A stretch of 33,606 nt of DNA, taken from assembly GCA_947490265.1 (NCBI GenBank), contig CANLGQ010000010.1:1-33606 (forward strand). The letters run 5' to 3'. The notes under the pieces were generated by a model. It saw only the letters and a program-made list of their open reading frames with translations, did no database searches and was not told the DNA's origin. The DNA comes from Pseudomonadota bacterium. GTDB taxonomy: Bacteria; Myxococcota_A; UBA796; GCA-2862545. Both the position numbers and the translations under genes were made by a program. Numbering within the stretch: the first letter of the stretch is position 1; each line of letters starts with the position of its first letter. Below, piece by piece: positions 14,346 through 29,197 of the stretch.

Positions 14346-15125
14346 GTGTACGAGAAGGAGCTCGAGGTCGCGATCGAGGCTGCCCGGCGTGCGGGGGCGG
14401 CGATCGCGGAGATCTACGACGCCAAGGACACGTCGCACGTCGAGAAGAGCGACGATCGCGGACCGCTGACCGAGGCCGACACGCGGTCGAACACGATCCT
14501 GATCGAGGCGATCCAGTCCGCGTTTCCGACCGACGCGATCCTCTCGGAAGAGACGAAGGACACGCCGGAGCGCCTCGACAAGCGACGCGCCTGGATCCTC
14601 GATCCTCTCGATGGCACGCGCGAGTTCACCCTGCAGATCCCCGAGTTCGTCGTCTCGATCGGGTTCGTCGTCGATGGAGAGATCGCGGCGGGTGTCCTGT
14701 ACAACCCGGCCTCTCGGGAGTTGTTCACCGGCCTTGTCGGTGGAGAGGCCACCTGGAAGGGCTCCCCCTGCCGGGTGAGCGGTCACCAGGCCTTCGAGGG
14801 GGCTCGGTTCCTGGTGAGCCGGTCCGAGTACAAGAAGGGCTGGTTCGACAAGTACAAGGATCAGGTCGCGCTTACGCCGATGGGCTCCGTGGCCTACAAG
14901 TTCGGGTTGGTCGCCGCCGGGCAGGCGGAGGCCAGCTTCACGCCGGAGCCGCGGAACGAGTGGGACCTCGCAGGGGGCGTGGCGTGTGTGATCGCTGCCG
15001 GAGGGCTCGCGACCGATGGTCGGGGCGCGCCCTATCGATTCAACCGCCCGGATCCGCTCCACATCGGGGTCTGCGGGACGAATGGCTGGCTCCATGAGCG
15101 CGTTCTGGGCTTGATTCGCCGATGA
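14346..15125 (+). CDS. cysQ: 3'(2'),5'-bisphosphate nucleotidase / inositol monophosphatase family protein
   Basis: A 259-residue protein of the lithium-sensitive, Mg-dependent phosphatase family. Metal-ligand motifs are all visible: the acidic pair in LSEE (about 67-70), DPLDGTREF (86-94) and the C-terminal WDLAGG (about 205). The GT-R-EF form is closer to CysQ (GTKEF), which degrades 3'-phosphoadenosine 5'-phosphate from sulfate activation, than to classical IMPase (GTxNF). I therefore use the symbol cysQ with caution; inositol or other phosphates are possible substrates. The stop overlaps the MFS gene by 4 bases (ATGA). Confidence 0.82.
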   Translation: MYEKELEVAIEAARRAGAAIAEIYDAKDTSHVEKSDDRGPLTEADTRSNTILIEAIQSAFPTDAILSEETKDTPERLDKRRAWILDPLDGTREFTLQIPEFVVSIGFVVDGEIAAGVLYNPASRELFTGLVGGEATWKGSPCRVSGHQAFEGARFLVSRSEYKKGWFDKYKDQVALTPMGSVAYKFGLVAAGQAEASFTPEPRNEWDLAGGVACVIAAGGLATDGRGAPYRFNRPDPLHIGVCGTNGWLHERVLGLIRR

Positions 15126-16321
15126 GCCCGGGTCGGACCCCAGGCCTCGGCCCCGTGCTGCTGGCCGTGCTGGTGGACCTGCTGGGGTTCGGCCTCGTCA
15201 TCCCTTTGCTTACGTTCTACGCCGAGTCCTTCCACGCGAGCGCCATTCAGGTGACGCTCCTGGCCGCGGTCTACAGCCTCGCCCAGTTCGCCTTCGCACC
15301 GGTCTGGGGGCGGCTCTCAGATCAGGTTGGTCGGCGGCCGGTGATGCTCGTGTCGATCGCCGGAACGGCGGTCTTCCTCGCCGCCTTCGCCCTGGCGCCC
15401 TCGCTCCCCTGGCTCTTCGTCTGTCGCGCACTACACGGTGCCTTTGCGGCCAATATTTCCACCGCCCAGGCCTACGTCGCCGACGTGACCACCCCCGAGA
15501 ATCGCGCGCGCGGGATGGGCCTCATCGGCGCCTCGTTCGGGATCGGCTTCAGCTTGGGTCCGTGGGTCGGCGGAGAGCTCTCCCCGTATGGGCTCGCCGT
15601 CCCGATCTGGGCGGCGGCAGCCCTCTCGGCCCTCAACTTCGCCTGGGCGGTGGTCGCGCTGCCCGAGAGCCGACCGGCGGGCCAGCGGCAGGCCACCCAC
15701 CGTTCGCTCGATCCGCGTCACCTCGGGCGGGCGCTCCGCCACCCGGCGGTGGGGCCAGCGATCGGACTGGCCTTTACCGCTACCGCAGCCTTCGCCATGA
15801 TGGAGGCCACGTTTTCGCTGGTCGCCGAGCACTCCTGGCGCATGGATGCCCAGGGGGTCGGCCGCGTGTTCGCCCTGATCGGCGGGATCGGCATCCTCGT
15901 TCAGGGAGGCCTCCTCCATCGCCTCGTGCGCCGCTACGGCGAACCCTCGCTGGTGGTCGTGGGATACGCCGCGAACGCGGCCGGGCTGGCGACCCTCGCG
16001 TTCGCAGGACCGGGCGCCGCCCTCTGGGTCGGGTGCGCCGCGATCGCGGTGGGGTCTTCGCTCGCAAACCCCTCCCTCACCTCCCTGATCAGCCGAGGCG
16101 CGGGGAGCGATCAACAGGGCGCGGTGCTCGGGGTCAACCAGTCGCTGGGTGCGCTCGCCCGCGCCGCCGGACCGGCCGCCGGGGGCTTCCTCTATGCCCA
16201 CTGGTTCCGGGGAGGGGCGTTCCTCGTTGGAGCCATCCTCATGGCGACCAGCATGGCCGCGGCCTGGCCCATCGCCCGGCGTGCCGTCACCCCGATCCCG
16301 CGTCCGGCGCCTAACCCTTGA
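15122..16321 (+). CDS. MFS exporter, TetA-like (DHA1) family
   Basis: A 399-residue integral membrane protein with about 12 hydrophobic segments. It starts with the TetA-like GFGLVIPLLTFY helix, and motif A is clear in the loop between helices 2 and 3 (GRLSDQVGRRP, residues 63-73). The long central loop (about residue 185-205, charged and His-rich) separates the two halves. Proton-driven export of a small molecule is expected; the substrate cannot be read from sequence. The start overlaps the phosphatase stop (ATGA) and the hpt gene follows within 10 bases, so it is the middle gene of a three-gene operon. Confidence 0.92.
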   Translation: MSPGRTPGLGPVLLAVLVDLLGFGLVIPLLTFYAESFHASAIQVTLLAAVYSLAQFAFAPVWGRLSDQVGRRPVMLVSIAGTAVFLAAFALAPSLPWLFVCRALHGAFAANISTAQAYVADVTTPENRARGMGLIGASFGIGFSLGPWVGGELSPYGLAVPIWAAAALSALNFAWAVVALPESRPAGQRQATHRSLDPRHLGRALRHPAVGPAIGLAFTATAAFAMMEATFSLVAEHSWRMDAQGVGRVFALIGGIGILVQGGLLHRLVRRYGEPSLVVVGYAANAAGLATLAFAGPGAALWVGCAAIAVGSSLANPSLTSLISRGAGSDQQGAVLGVNQSLGALARAAGPAAGGFLYAHWFRGGAFLVGAILMATSMAAAWPIARRAVTPIPRPAPNP

Positions 16322-16962: not shown

Positions 16963-18525
16963 TTGCTCGTTCTACTCGCCACGTTGGCCCACGCCACGCC
17001 CGCAATGAACCCGCTGCAGCTCTCGCACGACGCGCTGTGGGGAGCCTACCTCCACCATTTCGAGCCACAGGCCGCCCCCGCCGACGCCCTCCCGCCGCTG
17101 TGCGCCACCGTGCTGGTCGAGACCCTGAAACAGCGGTGGAGCGAATTCAGCGAGGCCGAGCAGGCCCGAATCACGAGCCACGTGGCGCCGTTCCTCCCGT
17201 CGCTCACCGCGCCGCTCAAGCCCCGAGCCGCGGCGGCGGGGGCTCGCCAGCCGTGTTGGGGCGGATACCTCGACAACGAACGGCAGAGCGACCACTTCTC
17301 GGTCGAATGGGACAACGGGACGATCTCGTCGAGCGAGGTGGACGTTCTGCTGACCGAGCTGGAGTTCTCGTACCAGGTCGAGGTCGCAGACCTCGGATGG
17401 CGGGAGCCAGACGGTATGAACGCGTTCTTGCTCACCGTCTACGTCATCAACCAGGCCTCGGCCGCGGCGTACACCACGGTCTCGCAGTGTGGCAACGTGA
17501 ACATGCCCTATGTGGTCGCCAACGACGGCTCGTTCTTCAACGACGTCTGGTGGAAGGACATGGTCGCCCACGAGTTCAATCACGCCTCGCAGTTCGGCTA
17601 CGGCGACGACCTCGAGTTTTGGTTCTGGGAGGCCACCGCGACCTACGTGCAGGAGTCGGTGTACCCCGCCCACAACGAATGGGCGCCGTACATCACCGGC
17701 TACTCGGACCAGCCGTACATGGCGATGTCGGCCTCGGATCAAGCGGACGACGCGATCTTCTGGCACATGTACGGGATGGCGATCTGGAACTTCTGGCTCG
17801 ACGAAAACTACGGTGGCGTCGCCACGATTCAGGACATCTGGTCCTATAGCGACAGCATCGGCGACTCGTACTCGGTGACCCAACAGGAGGCGCTCGCCGG
17901 CATCGGCGTCGACTTCGCGGAGGCGTTCAAGGGCTTCACCGCAGCCAACACCGTGATGGACTACGCCGAGCATGCCTGGTTTCCGGTGATTCGCCCGCAG
18001 ATCGAGGTGGAGGACCTGCCGGCGGACGGGAGCACCTCCTCGTTCACCGAGCCCGAGGCCTATGGCTCCAACTACATCCGGTTCGACGTCGATCCCCCGA
18101 CGTGGGAGAAGACGGACCTGTTGTTCACGTTCGTCGGTGATGAACCAGCGAATTGGCTGGTCCAGATCGTCGGGGCGAACGACAACCACGTCGAGGTCGT
18201 CGTCGAGGTCGAACTCCTGGAGTCCGAAGGCGTGGGCCGGCTCGCGAACTATGGGGATTACGACCAGCTCTACGCGGTGGCTTCCCCGAGGAAGGACGCG
18301 CCCGGGACCTTCGGCTTCTCGTGGGCGGCCGAGGGCGCAATCCCGATTGGCGGCACCGAACCCGAGGAGGAAGAAACCCCCGAAGACGGCACAGGCCCAA
18401 TCACCGTCGAGGGCGAGTCCGGCGGCGGTCTGTTCGGCTGCGCGGCCACCGGCGGAACGACCGGCCTGCCCGGCCTCGGCGCCCTGCTCGCCCTCCTGGC
18501 CCTCCGGCGCCGGTCCGGCGGGTGA
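16963..18525 (+). CDS. Secreted zinc metallopeptidase with MYXO-CTERM-like sorting tail
   Basis: A 520-residue protein. A short hydrophobic N-terminus (VLLATLAHA) can serve as a signal peptide, though it lacks the usual positive residue. HEFNH (residues 203-207) in MVAHEFNHASQ is the HExxH zinc site, with Glu223 in FWEATATYVQE as the likely third ligand (gluzincin-like). After about residue 340 come beta-rich domains. The tail has an acidic linker, a Cys at about 493 in LFGCAATGG, a hydrophobic segment and a terminal RRR, typical of MYXO-CTERM sorting signals. The start is TTG behind GGAGGGG; no in-frame alternative exists before an upstream stop. The stop overlaps the next gene (GTGA). The target protein is unknown. 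Confidence 0.85.
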   Translation: MLVLLATLAHATPAMNPLQLSHDALWGAYLHHFEPQAAPADALPPLCATVLVETLKQRWSEFSEAEQARITSHVAPFLPSLTAPLKPRAAAAGARQPCWGGYLDNERQSDHFSVEWDNGTISSSEVDVLLTELEFSYQVEVADLGWREPDGMNAFLLTVYVINQASAAAYTTVSQCGNVNMPYVVANDGSFFNDVWWKDMVAHEFNHASQFGYGDDLEFWFWEATATYVQESVYPAHNEWAPYITGYSDQPYMAMSASDQADDAIFWHMYGMAIWNFWLDENYGGVATIQDIWSYSDSIGDSYSVTQQEALAGIGVDFAEAFKGFTAANTVMDYAEHAWFPVIRPQIEVEDLPADGSTSSFTEPEAYGSNYIRFDVDPPTWEKTDLLFTFVGDEPANWLVQIVGANDNHVEVVVEVELLESEGVGRLANYGDYDQLYAVASPRKDAPGTFGFSWAAEGAIPIGGTEPEEEETPEDGTGPITVEGESGGGLFGCAATGGTTGLPGLGALLALLALRRRSGG

Positions 18526-19493
18526 CGCTCACCCGCCGCGCGCTTCTCGGTTCGGGCACTGCGCTCGCGACCGGATGCGACGCGGTCGTGCTCGACCAGG
18601 AGCCCGTCCCGGAGACGATCGAACCGATCACCTCCAACGAGGACTTCTACGTCTATTCGTGCTGTTTCGGCGCTGATCCCGATCCCGCCACCTGGGCCTG
18701 CCCGATCACCGATCGCGGCGTGCCGATCGGCACCCTCGACGCCGCCTGGCTGGCCGCCCACGCGGCGACCCCCTTCGAGCACACGCTCCAGTGCATCGGC
18801 TCCACCCCAACAAACATCGCCATCTCCAACGCCATTTTTGGCGGAATTCGCCTGGTCGATGTCCTGGCCGAGTTCGGGGTCGCCGTCGATCCGTCGATCG
18901 TCCAGCTCTACCTGGTCGGAGTGGACGACTACGACGCTGGAATGCCCGCTTCCGACATCGAGAAGGCCTGGCTGGTGTGGGAGATGAACGGCGTGCCCCT
19001 GCCGGTGGCGCATGGGTTTCCCGCGCGCCTGATCATCCCGGGCCGCTACGGCGTCAAGAACGTAAAGTGGCTCGCCTCCATCGCGCTCCTCTCCGAGCCG
19101 ATCGTGGACTATTGGACGGAGCGCGGTTGGGACGCCGAGGCGCAATACCAGTGCAACGGCTTCATCGTCGCGCCCGTTCCCGGGTCCACGGTCCCCAACC
19201 ACCAGGCGCTCGCGTACTTCGGGATCGCCTATGCCGGCGAGGATCCGGTCACCTCGGTCGAGATCACCTTCGACGACTTCGCCACCACCGAGCGCGCCAC
19301 GCTGGACTATGCGCCCGGCGCAAACCGGTGGGTGCTCTGGTCCTTCGTGTGGACCCCGCGTCGAGAGGGCGTCGTCACGGCCCAGATCCGGGTCACGACC
19401 GCGAGCGGCGCGGTTTCGAGCGAGAACCCCGCTGGCACCAACTATCTCGCCGGCTATGACGGCGGAATGGCGGTCGAGATCACCGTCGCATGA
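18522..19493 (+). CDS. Tat-exported lipoprotein of the sulfite oxidase molybdopterin family
   Basis: A 323-residue protein with the N-terminus TRRALLG (twin Arg 5-6) followed by ATGC, a combined Tat signal and lipobox (lipid Cys 19). The sulfite-oxidase fold is shown by HTLQCIGS, where Cys91 would be the molybdenum ligand. FGGIRLVDVL and PGRYGVKNVKWLASI (about 173-187, the conserved PGRYG...KWL block) agree. The last 100 or so residues match the Ig-like Mo-co dimerisation domain (VTSVEITFDDF, SFVWTPRREGVVTAQIRV). The GN that usually follows the Cys is GS here. Substrates could be sulfite, methionine sulfoxide or something else; this cannot be decided. It is coupled to both neighbours (GTGA and ATGA). 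Confidence 0.88.
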   Translation: MTLTRRALLGSGTALATGCDAVVLDQEPVPETIEPITSNEDFYVYSCCFGADPDPATWACPITDRGVPIGTLDAAWLAAHAATPFEHTLQCIGSTPTNIAISNAIFGGIRLVDVLAEFGVAVDPSIVQLYLVGVDDYDAGMPASDIEKAWLVWEMNGVPLPVAHGFPARLIIPGRYGVKNVKWLASIALLSEPIVDYWTERGWDAEAQYQCNGFIVAPVPGSTVPNHQALAYFGIAYAGEDPVTSVEITFDDFATTERATLDYAPGANRWVLWSFVWTPRREGVVTAQIRVTTASGAVSSENPAGTNYLAGYDGGMAVEITVA

Positions 19494-20341
19494 TCGCCTG
19501 GATCGGCGGGCTCGCCCTGGCGGGTCCGTGGACCCGGTCCGCCGGCGAGTACTACGCAAAGTTGGCGGTCGACGCATATTCCGCGCCCGAATATCGCTCG
19601 CCGGTCACCGCGTTGCCCGGCGTCACCGAGTCGGGAACCACCGGCTTTCGCGGGGAGCAATTCAGCGCCTGGGTCGAGTTCGGGGCGTTGCCCGAGGGTG
19701 CCTGGCGCGCCCAGCTCGCCCTCTCGGTGCCGGTCACCGCGGGGCACACGGAATTCGATTTCGACAACGGCTTCGGCCGGGTGCGCGGCCACACCACCGT
19801 CGTCCGGGTCGGCGACGTCCGCCTCGTCCCGCAGGTCGCCCTCCATCCGACTGCGCCCATCGCCGCCGCGCTCGAGCTCAAGGTCCCCGCCTACCGAAAC
19901 GACAGTGTCTGCCGGGACAGTCCGTACCGGATCTACTGCCCGCGCCCCGGCGACGGACAGATCGACCTGACGCCCAGCGTGCTCGCCGGCGTGTCGAACC
20001 CGCACGGGTTCGCCGAGTTCTCCGCCGGCTGGCGCATCCGCACCGACTGGGTGCTCGGCGCGGAGGGCCCACCGCGCCCCCTCGGTGACGGGCCGGCGTT
20101 CGCGGCGGCCGGAGGGGGCCACCTGTCCAGCCTGCTCTTGATCGCCCGCGTCGAGGGCAATCTCGTGCTGAACCCCGACGACGCGATCACGCCGCAGGCG
20201 GTGCGCCTCGGCCCGGCGGCCCTCTGGACGGTGCACGAGGCGACCGGTACCGCCCTCGAAGCTAGGTTCATGGCCGACCTGTGGTCCAAGGGGACCGCGC
20301 GGGGCGTCGGCGGCGGGGTCGGGGTCTCGGCGCGCCGCTGA
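19490..20341 (+). CDS. Probable outer-membrane beta-barrel protein, unknown function
   Basis: A 283-residue protein beginning MIAWIGGLALAGPWT, a very short possible signal peptide. Alternating hydrophobic and polar strands follow (AWRAQLALSVPVTAG, VGDVRLVPQVALHP, HGFAEFSAGWRIRTDW), as in outer-membrane barrels. A cysteine pair in SVCRDSPYRIYC probably forms a disulfide in a loop. I do not recognise the family. The start overlaps the molybdoenzyme stop by 4 bases (ATGA), which ties it to the peptidase and molybdoenzyme genes. Confidence 0.7.
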   Translation: MIAWIGGLALAGPWTRSAGEYYAKLAVDAYSAPEYRSPVTALPGVTESGTTGFRGEQFSAWVEFGALPEGAWRAQLALSVPVTAGHTEFDFDNGFGRVRGHTTVVRVGDVRLVPQVALHPTAPIAAALELKVPAYRNDSVCRDSPYRIYCPRPGDGQIDLTPSVLAGVSNPHGFAEFSAGWRIRTDWVLGAEGPPRPLGDGPAFAAAGGGHLSSLLLIARVEGNLVLNPDDAITPQAVRLGPAALWTVHEATGTALEARFMADLWSKGTARGVGGGVGVSARR

Positions 20342-24671: not shown

Positions 24672-25421
24672 ATGGGACGGGGTGACGGGATCCCAGCATT
24701 CTTCGCCCTCGCGTGCGGGCTCACCTGGCTCCTCGACACGCCGCTCGTCTGGGCCTGGACGCATCACCGCGAGCCCGCTGCCTGGGCGCTCGCTCTCGCC
24801 GGGTTGAGCGCGTTCGGACCCACACTCGCCGCCGTGGCCCTCGCCGCCCCGCGGGGCGAACTCGGGCTGGTGTTCGGGCGCTGGCGAGCCAACCCACTTT
24901 GGGTCGTACTCGCGCTGTTTACCCCGATGTTCCTCCATTTTCCAGCCACTATGCTGGACGCGCTCCTCGGCGGCGAGCCGGCGCAATGGCTCTACCTCCC
25001 GGACAAGCCAGAGCGGATCCTCGCCCTGGTCTTTTTCTCGATCGGCGAGGAGTTTGGCTGGCGCGGTTTCGCCCAGCCCCGCATGGCCGCGCGCTTCGGG
25101 CCGGTGCGGGGCTCGCTGTTGCTGGGGATGGTCTGGGCGCTCTGGCACGCGATGATGGTGTTCACCCCCGCGGGCGCGATCGACTGGCAGGGCGCGGCCT
25201 TCCTCGTGATCACCCTGCCGCTGTGGTCGGTCGTGATGGCCTGGTTCCTCGCCCGCGGGGGCGGGAGCCTCGCGGTTGCGATCGCGCTGCACGCCGGCGG
25301 TCACCTCGACAACAACAGCCTGGCCCCGGCGTCGGCGGTGCAACTTCGCGTGCTGACGGTGCTCGTGCTGGCGGTGGCCAGCGGCCTCGCGGCCCGGTCG
25401 CTGGCGCGCGACCGGGGTTAG
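24672..25421 (+). CDS. CPBP family intramembrane metalloprotease
   Basis: A 249-residue membrane protein with about seven hydrophobic segments. The three CPBP (Abi, CAAX-protease-like) motifs are visible: EEFGWRGF (Glu126, Glu127, Arg131), WALWH (His159) and HLDNN (His211, Asn215). The family cleaves membrane substrates or processes peptides and prenylated proteins; the target here is unknown. The ATG was chosen because the upstream frame has no conserved character and a G-rich ribosome site lies before it, though the spacing is long. The next gene starts 10 bases downstream, suggesting one transcript. Confidence 0.9.
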   Translation: MGRGDGIPAFFALACGLTWLLDTPLVWAWTHHREPAAWALALAGLSAFGPTLAAVALAAPRGELGLVFGRWRANPLWVVLALFTPMFLHFPATMLDALLGGEPAQWLYLPDKPERILALVFFSIGEEFGWRGFAQPRMAARFGPVRGSLLLGMVWALWHAMMVFTPAGAIDWQGAAFLVITLPLWSVVMAWFLARGGGSLAVAIALHAGGHLDNNSLAPASAVQLRVLTVLVLAVASGLAARSLARDRG

Positions 25422-25431
25422 CTTCAGAAGC

Positions 25432-26793
25432 ATGCTCCTCGCCGTCGCCCTCGCCTGCGGGCGCCCGGACCCCGACCCCCCGCCGGCCACGCCCAGCCTG
25501 CAAGCGAGCTGCGCCTCCGACCCGGAGGATCCGACCCGCGCGACCTGCCAGGTGGCGCTCGACGCCCCGGGGCACGCCGAGGTCGAGCTGACCGATGGGA
25601 CCGAGACGGTGCGCTTCACGACCGATGCACCGGGTCGCGCCCACGCGATCCCGATCTGGGGTCTTCACGCCGACCGAGCGTGGAGCTGGGTCGCCCGCGC
25701 CGGCCCCGACTCGGCCTCCGGCGCCTTCACCCCGGGGTCGCTGCCCGACGCCCTGGCCGTCGAGGTGGCTGCGACCGGCGGTTCGGGGTCGACCCTCCGC
25801 GGCGTGATCGGCCCGATCGACTGCGGGGGAGGCGGATTCGCGACGGTGCTCGACGGCCGGGGGCGGGTGCGTTGGTACGCCGATACCCATCGCGACGACC
25901 TCGACATGGTCCAATTCACCGAGGCCTCGACGGTGCTGCTCGTCGCCGACAAGGCGGCGGTGATCGAGCTCGACCTCCTCGGAAACGTTTGGTTGAACCG
26001 AGACGATTACGGACTGCCGGTACACCACGACGTCTTCCGCAGGGGCGACGCGATCTACACGCTGTTGGCCGACGCCTACCCGGAGGCGAACGGCGAGACG
26101 TATGTCGAAGAGATCGTGGTGAAGCTCGACCTCGGGGGCAACGAGATCTGGCGTTGGGACGAGCACGACCACCTCGACGCCACCCGCGCCCGGCCCGGCG
26201 GGGGCGAATTCTGGGCCTGGCGGTTCCCCGGGGCGACCGACGCCTGGCACACGAACGCGCTCTACCCAACCGACGACGAACACGTGCTCCTCTCGCTGAA
26301 GCGGGAGAGCTCGATCCTCCGGATCGCCGAAGCGGACGGCTCGATCGCGTGGACGCTCGCCGGCGACGGGGTGGGACGGTCGCTCGGATCCGACTTCGCC
26401 TTTGCCGGCTCGGGCGACCCGACGTTCGGCGACGAGCACCACGTCGCCCTGGTCCCCGGCGGCAACCTGACGGTCTTCGACAACCGCAAGGCGCGGGGCC
26501 TCGCGCTTTCGCTCGACGAGACCGCGGGGACGGCGTCCTTCGTAGCGGACTGGCCGCTCGACCTGGTGTGCGGCATCCAGTCGTCGATCTTCCCGATGGG
26601 CGACGGACACTGGCTGGCAACCTGCGCCCCGGGACACGAGATCGCGGAGTTCGACGACAACGGTGCCGAGGTGCTGCGCCTGGCGCTGGCTTGCCCCGCG
26701 GGGCCCCCGATCACGCGCACGGCGCGGGGACAGCCGATCGATCTGTGGGGCGGGCACTCAGCCGGAGGCGTCACCGCGACCCGGATCCGGTGA
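25432..26793 (+). CDS. Arylsulfotransferase-like (ASST family) lipoprotein
   Basis: A 453-residue protein with a very short lipoprotein signal (MLLAVALAC, lipid Cys 9). The body has the six-bladed propeller character of arylsulfate sulfotransferase-type proteins. DAWHTNALYPTDDEHVLLSL is followed by a KRESSILRI block, and EHHVALVPGGNLTVFDN is the repeated His and propeller motif typical of that family. In true ASST a histidine carries the sulfuryl group; which His would do so here is not decided. The protein is probably periplasmic or surface-exposed and membrane-anchored. It follows the CPBP gene by 10 bases and overlaps the convergent isomerase gene by 23 bases at its end. Confidence 0.78.
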   Translation: MLLAVALACGRPDPDPPPATPSLQASCASDPEDPTRATCQVALDAPGHAEVELTDGTETVRFTTDAPGRAHAIPIWGLHADRAWSWVARAGPDSASGAFTPGSLPDALAVEVAATGGSGSTLRGVIGPIDCGGGGFATVLDGRGRVRWYADTHRDDLDMVQFTEASTVLLVADKAAVIELDLLGNVWLNRDDYGLPVHHDVFRRGDAIYTLLADAYPEANGETYVEEIVVKLDLGGNEIWRWDEHDHLDATRARPGGGEFWAWRFPGATDAWHTNALYPTDDEHVLLSLKRESSILRIAEADGSIAWTLAGDGVGRSLGSDFAFAGSGDPTFGDEHHVALVPGGNLTVFDNRKARGLALSLDETAGTASFVADWPLDLVCGIQSSIFPMGDGHWLATCAPGHEIAEFDDNGAEVLRLALACPAGPPITRTARGQPIDLWGGHSAGGVTATRIR

Positions 26794-27430
26794 CCGTCGG
26801 CGCTCCCGGCTGGTTCTCCGGCAGGGCGCCCGCCGCGTGCGGCGTCGCCAGCGCGGCGGCCTCCGCGGCCAGCACGCGCGGGAAGGGGCTCACATCCACC
26901 CCGAACCGGCGCGCGCTGTACACCTGCGGCACGAGGAAGAGGTCGGCCGCGCCCACGTCGCGCCCCCAACAGAAGGGGCCCGGTCGCTCGGCCTCCCAGC
27001 GCTCGAGCAGCCCCTCGAAGGCGGTGAGTCCCCGGCAATTGAAGTGGGCCGCCCAGCCGTTCCGGGCGACGTGATCGGTCTCGCTGACCCGATCGAGGAC
27101 CGCCAGGTTCTGGAGCGGCTGGATCCCGGTGTTGACGAGCTCGCAGAGCTGGCGAACCCGCGCGCGTCCCCAGGGATCGGCGGGGAACAGCGGGGGGACG
27201 GGGCAGGTCTCCTCGAGCCATTCGAGCACCGCCATGGACTCGCCGAGCAGGCGGCCCTCGACCTCGAGCACCGGGACGTGGCCGATCGGGTTCCGTCCCC
27301 GGTGGACGCCCTGGTGCTGCTCCTGTCCCATCAAGTCGACGATCACCGAGTCGAAGCGAACCCCCTTGATCGCGAGGGCCCACCGAACGCGCCAGGAAGC
27401 GCTCGAACGCCAGAAATGATAGAGCTTCAC
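26771..27430 (-). CDS. maiA: Maleylacetoacetate isomerase-like zeta-class GST
   Basis: A 219-residue protein. The N-terminal KLYHFWRSSASWRVRWAL carries the Ser-rich zeta-class motif (SSxxWRVR) used by maleylacetoacetate isomerase, which turns maleylacetoacetate into fumarylacetoacetate in tyrosine breakdown. NPIGHVPVLEVEG and LGESMAVLEWLEE match the glutathione site. The C-domain retains the NTGIQPLQNL block. The GTG start is 6 bases after GGAG; a GTG 30 bases upstream is less likely. No other tyrosine-pathway gene is near, so a general glutathione role is also possible. The 3' end overlaps the ASST-like gene by 23 bases. Confidence 0.85.
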   Translation of the reverse strand: MKLYHFWRSSASWRVRWALAIKGVRFDSVIVDLMGQEQHQGVHRGRNPIGHVPVLEVEGRLLGESMAVLEWLEETCPVPPLFPADPWGRARVRQLCELVNTGIQPLQNLAVLDRVSETDHVARNGWAAHFNCRGLTAFEGLLERWEAERPGPFCWGRDVGAADLFLVPQVYSARRFGVDVSPFPRVLAAEAAALATPHAAGALPENQPGAPTVTGSGSR

Positions 27431-27484
27431 GGTTGCTCCGGTCGGTTGGACGACCACCACGCTATCCTACCACCGGGAGGGCCG

Positions 27485-29197
27485 ATGACCGCCCCGCGCA
27501 CCGCAGCCGCCCTCGCGGTCTTGCTCCTCGCCTGCGAGCCGGCGCCGACCTCGCCGTCGACCTCGCCCGCACCCACCCCAGACCCGGCCCCCGAGCCGAG
27601 CGCGCCGCCCACCGTCGTCACCGAGACCGTGCCCGGGGCGCTCCCGCCCACCCTCGCCGCCGATCCCCCGCCGGGGATCGTCACCACCGACGTGAGCGTC
27701 GACCTCGTCCCCTCCGACCCCGACGCCACGATCGTCTACACCCTCGATGGCCGGCCCCCTGAAGTCGGTGTTTCCCCCGAATGGACCGGGCCGGTCCTCC
27801 TCGACCGGAGCGCATCCATCCGCGCGATCGCCACCAACGCCTACGGCTCGGTGGCCTGGGCCGGTACGTGGCTGCGGGCCGACCCGACGGTGGCGTCCTT
27901 TTCGTCGGACCTCCCGGTGGCGGTCCTGTGGTCCAACGAGGCCGCGCCGGTCGTGAAAACAGAGGTTTTCAGCCGATTTACGGTCTCCACCTTCGAGCCC
28001 GACTTTTCCGGACGGACCACATGGCCGGCGAACGCCGCGCTCTCCACGCGCGCGGGGTTGAAGATCCGCGGATCGAGCTCGGCCGGCTACCCGAAGCACC
28101 CCTACCGGCTCGAGACCTGGCGCGCCGACGCCGATCTCGACACCGACGTGGTGCTGCTCGGCATGCCGGAGGAGGCCGACTGGGTGCTCGGGGCGCCGCT
28201 CGACTTCGACCGGGCGTTGATGCGCGATCCGCTGATGTTCGCCCTCTCCAACGCCATCGGCCGAACCGCCTCGCGAACCGAGTTCGCCGAGCTCTTCGTC
28301 GCCGAGCTGGGCGAAACCGTCGGAATGGACGACTACGTCGGCGTGTATGTATTCACCGAACGGATCGAGCGCGACGCCGACCGGGTGGCGATCACCCCGC
28401 TACTTCCCACCGATCTCGCCGAGCCCGAGGTGACGGGCGGCTACATTTTCAAGGAAGATCGCCTCGGGCCGGGCGAGTCGGGTTTCACCGCCGGCACGGC
28501 GGGCGGTCGCCTCGACTTCCAGCAGCCCTTCGTGTTCGTCGATCCAAACGAAGACGAGCTGGCAGGCGAACAAAAAACCTATCTCAGCTCGGTTCTCGAT
28601 GATCTGGGGTGGGCGCTCGCCTCCCCCGACTTCACGAATCCCAACACCGGGCACCACTACGCGGACCTGATCGACGTCGATGCCTGGATCGATCACCACA
28701 TCCTAAACGTGCTCTCCAAGAACCCGGATTCGTTCCGTTTGAGCGGCTTCTTCACCAAGGACCGCGAGGGGCCGATCGCCGCGGGGCCGCTGTGGGACTT
28801 CGATCGGACGATGGGCTGCGCCAGCGATTCGCGCGCCGCCAACCCCACCTGGTGGGATGCGTCCAACGAGACAAGCGATTGCACCTATGTTTTCGACCAT
28901 GGCTTCTGGCGGGGCCTGTTTGCGGATCCTGCCTTCCGGGACGCCTATTTCGCCCGCTGGAGGGTGCTCCTGGACACCAGCCTCAGCGTGGCCACGATCG
29001 ACCTCGTAATCGACGGGATGGCCGCCCAGCTGACCGAGGCCGCGGTCCGCAACTATGCCGCCTGGCCTGCCTATCCTCCGCGCGGGCCGGATCACGCGGC
29101 CGAGGTGGCCACCCTAAAGACCTGGCTCCACACCCGGCATGCCTGGATCGACGGCTGCCTCGACCTCCCCGATCCGCGGGCCTGCCCGGGAAGCTGA
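27485..29197 (+). CDS. CotH-kinase family lipoprotein with chitobiase-like domain
   Basis: A 570-residue protein. Residues 1-17 are a lipoprotein signal (VLLLAC). A long Pro/Thr/Ser-rich linker follows, then a chitobiase C-terminal-like beta domain (about 62-125, with VYTLDGRPPE). The CotH atypical protein-kinase domain spans about 185-450: LKIRGSSSAGYPKHPYRLE, YVGVYVFTERIERD, GGYIFKED, and the metal-binding WDFDRTMG (Asp438, Asp440) after SKNPDSFRLSGFF. CotH phosphorylates spore-coat proteins in Bacillus; bacterial secreted relatives are mostly unstudied. A GGGAGGG ribosome site precedes the ATG. The gene is divergent from maiA across 54 bases. Confidence 0.88.
   Translation: MTAPRTAAALAVLLLACEPAPTSPSTSPAPTPDPAPEPSAPPTVVTETVPGALPPTLAADPPPGIVTTDVSVDLVPSDPDATIVYTLDGRPPEVGVSPEWTGPVLLDRSASIRAIATNAYGSVAWAGTWLRADPTVASFSSDLPVAVLWSNEAAPVVKTEVFSRFTVSTFEPDFSGRTTWPANAALSTRAGLKIRGSSSAGYPKHPYRLETWRADADLDTDVVLLGMPEEADWVLGAPLDFDRALMRDPLMFALSNAIGRTASRTEFAELFVAELGETVGMDDYVGVYVFTERIERDADRVAITPLLPTDLAEPEVTGGYIFKEDRLGPGESGFTAGTAGGRLDFQQPFVFVDPNEDELAGEQKTYLSSVLDDLGWALASPDFTNPNTGHHYADLIDVDAWIDHHILNVLSKNPDSFRLSGFFTKDREGPIAAGPLWDFDRTMGCASDSRAANPTWWDASNETSDCTYVFDHGFWRGLFADPAFRDAYFARWRVLLDTSLSVATIDLVIDGMAAQLTEAAVRNYAAWPAYPPRGPDHAAEVATLKTWLHTRHAWIDGCLDLPDPRACPGS

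Follow-up and report, generated by a model that had tools for sequence, protein, structure and literature searches.

A coupled sulfite-oxidase-family lipoprotein and predicted outer-membrane barrel in Myxococcota, and a peptidase gene that is probably their unrelated neighbour

Introduction

To our knowledge, those bacterial members of the sulfite oxidase family that have been characterised act together with haem partners, in the periplasm. The closest described ones are the sulfite dehydrogenases SorA and SorT (PDB 2blf, 6y0k) and MsrP (YedY) of the MsrP/MsrQ system, which in Escherichia coli repairs envelope proteins (PMC7759655). Among outer-membrane proteins, the COG4313 channels have 12 strands and have been linked to the uptake of hydrophobic molecules (PMC4493636). 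In Myxococcus xanthus, proteins with a MYXO-CTERM tail (defined by a motif cysteine, a hydrophobic helix and an arginine-rich end) are sorted to the surface by myxosortase (PMC11980579). Here, we describe three adjacent forward-strand genes, designated P, S and B, on contig CANLGQ010000010.1 of a Myxococcota assembly; the entire contig of 33,606 nucleotides is the window that was analysed. S encodes a molybdenum enzyme of the sulfite oxidase family and B a predicted outer-membrane barrel, and the two form a conserved, translationally coupled unit, whereas P, encoding a predicted metallopeptidase, is most likely an unrelated neighbour that holds this position in this genome only. We regard it as highly probable that S and B belong together and that P is separate. 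A literature search returned no description of such a pair or of MXAN_6640, the protein after which the nearest curated family of P is named.

P (16963..18525, TTG start, 520 amino acids) encodes a secreted HExxH (gluzincin-type) metallopeptidase with a MYXO-CTERM tail. It overlaps S (18522..19493, GTG start, 323 amino acids), a lipoprotein of the twin-arginine translocation (Tat) pathway assigned from PF00174 and a profile alignment, in a GTGA stop/start junction (18522..18525). S in turn overlaps B (19490..20341, ATG start, 283 amino acids), a barrel with a short signal peptide assigned from an AlphaFold2 model, Foldseek and synteny, in an ATGA junction (19490..19493). A preliminary description, made from the letters of this DNA, had listed these three genes and both overlaps, and had called P a HEFNH zinc peptidase with a MYXO-CTERM-like tail, S a sulfite-oxidase-family enzyme with Tat signal and lipobox, and B a small barrel protein; coordinates, sequence and the comparisons below bear out each of these assignments. 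The start codons of all three genes are backed by orthologues (those of P start at the same position), and GGAGGGG stands immediately 5′ of the TTG of P. A scan for promoters and terminators gave no signal above shuffles. Base composition shows no break across the gene junctions, and thus gives no hint of a chimeric contig.

A conserved two-gene unit

Each of P, S and B was searched against 63 genomes of the order, after which the neighbourhoods were retrieved and their genes called by a codon model for which the window served as training sequence. Close B homologues (E below 1e-12, class-wide) occur in 14 genomes, belonging to families f1 (G000, which is the window's own assembly, and G008, G009, G010, G012, G017, G018, G021, G022 and G024) and f9 (G066–G069). 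In all 14, S lies directly upstream of B on the same strand, with an overlap of 4 bases in 11 genomes and of 1 base in the other 3. The pair must be old, since its members are only ~35–59% identical to the window's proteins, and additional S–B loci are present in named genome records. On the S tree, the B-linked proteins group together (one change, with 0/500 label shuffles as low), the single branch that separates them being weakly supported. Some assemblies that carry these myxobacterial loci are titled Klebsiella pneumoniae or Bifidobacterium breve (L120, L123, L142, L152, L153), and these titles look wrong.

The overlaps themselves say less. Junctions of 4 bases join 6/22 co-directional neighbour pairs in the window and 106/677 among the called genes of related loci, and at this locus a 4-base overlap alone is not beyond chance. 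As an NTGA overlap is an ordinary junction here, conservation must decide on functional coupling: the S–B junction is kept throughout the 14 genomes, while the P–S junction is seen in this genome and in none of the relatives. The case illustrates that, where genes are dense and GC content is high, a stop/start overlap seen in a single genome says little in favour of a functional cassette.

The peptidase gene upstream

In the only other genome of the genus examined (G008), P and S–B lie on different contigs (C132 and C314, respectively), and a PP2C-type gene is found upstream of S. P orthologues occur in most genomes of families f2–f6 without an adjacent S–B pair, with 34–49% identity over most of their length including the tail; their recurrent context (e.g. 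L107, G034:C163) consists of divergent thymidylate kinase–lipB and a convergent second lipoamide dehydrogenase gene. Conversely, among the eight S–B-bearing genomes of family f1 that belong to other genera, five (G009, G010, G021, G022, G024) gave no P match, and the three others (G012, G017, G018) hold distant P paralogues only. Two wider samples, one of 79 named-record loci (flanks of up to 7 kb) and one of 237 genomes drawn evenly from the phylum, contain no P beside S apart from one genome, G043. A six-frame hidden Markov model (HMM) check over 124 retrieved stretches around S homologues likewise matched only the P locus of G008 itself and G043. In the latter (L104, G043:C134, 2806-5202), a distant P paralogue, scoring 138 bits against >650 for full-length P orthologues, begins 21 bases after an S homologue on the same strand, in the order opposite to that of the window. 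Since the wider samples add no other case, the P–S–B order is specific to this genome. An insertion of S–B between P and the lipoamide dehydrogenase gene lpd, which P orthologues of family f4 also adjoin, was considered and rejected, the f4 lpd being a 38% paralogue of the window's.

The preliminary description had read the triplet as one system whose genes are very likely made together, and had proposed that gene order and overlap be checked in relatives. The order proved to be confined to the window's genome, and of the joint expression the S–B part stands, conserved and translationally coupled, while P falls outside the unit. Genes scattered in close relatives, or a peptidase regularly found without the other two, had been named there as grounds for giving up the triplet. 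Both are found, in the separate contigs of G008 and in the widespread P of f2–f6 that has no S–B beside it, and as a conserved system the triplet is thereby refuted.

P itself has no Pfam match and no sequence relatives in the PDB, and reaches 71.9 of 140 bits, under the curated cut-off, on NF045524 (MXAN_6640 family putative metalloprotease). With that family it shares the HExxH domain (residues 124-348) and the C-terminal sorting tail; by score it is a distant relative, and its close orthologues form a group of their own in families f2–f6. The HEFNH zinc-binding motif covers residues 203-207 (17569..17583), with H203, E204 and H207 invariant in 14/14 family members. Glu223 (17629..17631, in the sequence WEA), also invariant in 14/14, is the probable third zinc ligand judging by analogy with gluzincins, and Y270 is conserved to the same extent. 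The tail (18421..18513) is composed of the motif cysteine Cys493 (again 14/14), a hydrophobic helix and RRR; it scores just under the curated cut-offs (TIGR03382, 14.7 of 15.85 bits; TIGR03901, 14.4 of 20 bits), while 13/14 family members match TIGR03901 at E<=0.1. In its HExxH domain, a structure model with a predicted local distance difference test (pLDDT) score of 78.7 resembles lugdulysin, an M30 gluzincin, as well as M1 aminopeptidases; its C-terminal domain resembles pre-peptidase/collagen-binding-type sandwiches. P may plausibly act as an active metallopeptidase at the surface. Elsewhere in the window (24672-25421), a CPBP-type intramembrane protease is encoded that scores 40.7 bits on CPBP_MmRce1 and 22.7 of 100 bits on the myxosortase core, and is not a clear myxosortase; CPBP-type intramembrane proteases are the class of enzymes that sort MYXO-CTERM proteins.

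The molybdoenzyme

Membership of S in the broad sulfite oxidase family follows from its PF00174 score (91 bits, cut-off 24). Aligned as a profile, 25 S proteins match SorA, chicken sulfite oxidase and 6y0k over both the molybdenum cofactor (Moco) domain and the C-terminal domain. Mutant SorA chains listed in the PDB, whose departures from wild type fall on precisely the Arg55 and Tyr236 positions, anchor the register. The position of the molybdenum ligand, SorA Cys104, is taken by Cys91 (18792..18794), invariant in 25/25 S proteins, as are R169 and K182, which correspond to residues that contact the cofactor in sulfite oxidases. Where SorA has its catalytic Arg55, S has Tyr45 (18654..18656) and none of the 25 proteins has an arginine (Y/T/V/I/N instead), and in place of the catalytic Tyr236 of SorA it has Trp203 (19128..19130), a tryptophan in 24/25.

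The N-terminus (18522..18578) holds a Tat-type signal (TRR) and a lipobox ending in Cys19 (codon TGC). The lipobox cysteine is present in all 25 homologues and the twin arginine in 22 as called, standing just upstream of the called start in the remaining 3, so that S has the twin arginine followed by a lipobox cysteine that marks a Tat lipoprotein. On the curated equivalog models, S reaches 72 of 600 bits for SorA, 62.7 of 570 for SorT and 23 of 207 for MsrP, and is likewise far from the SoxC model. Because the SorA Arg/Tyr pair is replaced and these models are so distant, S represents a separate lipoprotein branch of the family. It resembles SorA and SorT in the two domains and the molybdenum-ligand cysteine, and differs from them in being a lipoprotein, in its pocket, in its scores and in having no adjoining haem partner. 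MsrP is likewise a Tat-exported, periplasmic catalytic subunit of the SUOX (sulfite oxidase) family; unlike MsrP, S is predicted to be lipid-anchored and is paired with a barrel.

The window's assembly (3.76 Mb, 316 contigs, 77.5% complete) contains TatC and MoaC, and MoaA was not found in it. A loss of cofactor synthesis was considered and rejected: with MoaC in the assembly, and a MoaA match in each of the nine f1 relatives that carry S–B (in G008 a fragment), incompleteness of the assembly is the probable explanation.

The predicted barrel protein

B has no Pfam match and no sequence relatives in the PDB. In the best AlphaFold2 model (pLDDT 76.7, predicted TM-score 0.76; two of five models were good), a short signal sequence is followed by 12–13 strands. 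The top Foldseek match of this model is FapF (5o65), and it also matches the COG4313 channel Pput2725 (4rl8), with a TM-score of 0.64/0.67. As a predicted structure, B thus has the 12-stranded barrel fold of a COG4313/FapF-type channel. It differs from both proteins in sequence (9–12% of structurally aligned residues are identical, and no sequence profile matches) and from FapF in having no periplasmic domain; given that no match exists at the sequence level, membership of COG4313/FapF is not claimed for B.

B relatives without S are located at L218 (G010:C43), L215 (G054:C140) and L219 (G059:C12), where the neighbour is either a DUF3179 protein or MurJ, the lipid II flippase. Weak B-like proteins are also encoded, in other orientations, beside more distant SUOX genes (L217, G007:C2, 2324-4070; L106, G010:C85, 5017-6903; L197, 5785-7798), hinting that barrel–SUOX pairing is possibly wider than the S–B clade.

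A possible role for the S–B pair

The anatomy of the unit is well supported; its substrate and the direction of its reaction we infer. S would carry a mono-pyranopterin molybdenum cofactor, and would be exported in folded form through Tat and lipid-anchored with its active site facing the periplasm. B would serve as the outer-membrane entry route for a small hydrophobic or amphipathic compound, on which S, in the periplasm, would carry out a two-electron oxo-transfer (oxidation or reduction), the electrons being accepted or supplied by a partner encoded elsewhere. As the pocket of S is without the anion-binding arginine, the substrate is probably uncharged or amphipathic. We propose this uptake-and-convert mechanism tentatively, as a possibility well short of an even chance. 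The combined statement, in which S–B is a two-gene operon with this role and P a separate gene upstream, comes closer to even but does not quite reach it. That S–B is an undescribed envelope redox module, combining a lipid-anchored SUOX enzyme of altered pocket and a dedicated 12-stranded channel in a molybdenum reaction new to the family, is more doubtful still. Conserved pairing of S with a channel of the outer membrane would point to the likely transport partner of the uncharacterised lipoprotein branch, making that branch testable.

Several observations weigh against this picture. Many genomes have S but lack B beside it (families f4 and f13; G005), which means that S can do without B; the genes adjoining such B-less S are unrelated among the neighbours examined (polyphosphate kinase 2, an M50 peptidase, ApbA, ribulose-phosphate epimerase). 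The more distant relatives of B adjoin MurJ or DUF3179 genes and not S, and among nine B members none matched a curated barrel family of Pfam by sequence. The lipobox cysteine is followed by aspartate in 8/10 B-linked S members of family f1. By the enteric +2 rule, an aspartate at this position retains a lipoprotein in the inner membrane, which would place S away from B; the rule may not hold for this lineage, and the uptake-and-convert model would be workable with S in either membrane. Lastly, the two independent adjacencies of a SUOX gene and a peptidase gene (the window and G043) exceed a random expectation of ~0.06, a rough estimate from the match counts of the searches and about 5000 genes per genome.

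Of the alternatives, the one that survives best, though unlikely, is that S, like MsrP, reduces methionine sulfoxide in envelope proteins, with B or other outer-membrane proteins as its clients. The SUOX family, Tat export, the periplasmic location and the repair function of E. coli MsrP all fit, and 22/25 S members weakly resemble the MsrP model; this similarity is far weaker than that to SorA and SorT, no match to an MsrQ-type Ferric_reduct domain (PF01794) was found in the 77.5% complete assembly, and a repair enzyme would have no need of one dedicated barrel. MsrP-like repair and sulfite oxidation had both been mentioned in the preliminary description, and the curated cut-offs and active-site residues lend support to neither. 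A redox step of predation had been suggested there as well, and none of the results speaks to it.

It is less probable again that B is a FapF-like export channel, moving S or an S-modified product to the surface instead of admitting a substrate. FapF is the top Foldseek match, S is a lipoprotein and the coupling of S and B is strict; a folded cofactor protein does not fit through a barrel of 12 strands, and B, at 283 residues that are almost all strands, leaves no room for the periplasmic domain of FapF.

We consider it very improbable that P, S and B form one surface system, in which peptidase and molybdoenzyme would process or repair oxidised proteins and the barrel would act as exporter or anchor. 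The GTGA and ATGA overlaps and the paralogous peptidase of G043 speak for it, as does the gene preceding S in G022 (L084, G022:C2, 4385-5728), which encodes a MYXO-CTERM-like tail (GCSSSG...ARRRR) and is not a P homologue. Against these stand the commonness of 4-base overlaps and the distribution of P, which is on another contig in G008, missing from five S–B genomes of f1, widespread without S–B and, G043 excepted, never beside S in the named loci or the phylum sample. Least probable of all is a sulfite dehydrogenase S with B as a sulfite or sulfate porin, since essentially all 25 S members have other residues in place of the catalytic Arg and Tyr, no cytochrome c gene adjoins S and the 600- and 570-bit cut-offs are not reached, even though the best curated similarities of S are to SorA and SorT and its nearest solved structures are sulfite oxidases. 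The uptake-and-convert role is the one we prefer for S–B.

Other genes in the window

Upstream of P (14346-16321), a HisN/CysQ-like phosphatase gene shares a 4-base overlap with that of a tetracycline-efflux-like MFS (major facilitator superfamily) transporter (196 of 475 bits), followed by a hypoxanthine phosphoribosyltransferase gene. Downstream, an Arylsulfotransferase-family protein (25432-26793; PF05935, 82 bits) is encoded, as well as a CotH-kinase domain protein with a chitobiase-type C-terminal domain (27044-29197; PF08757, 125 bits), the called start of which is probably too far upstream.

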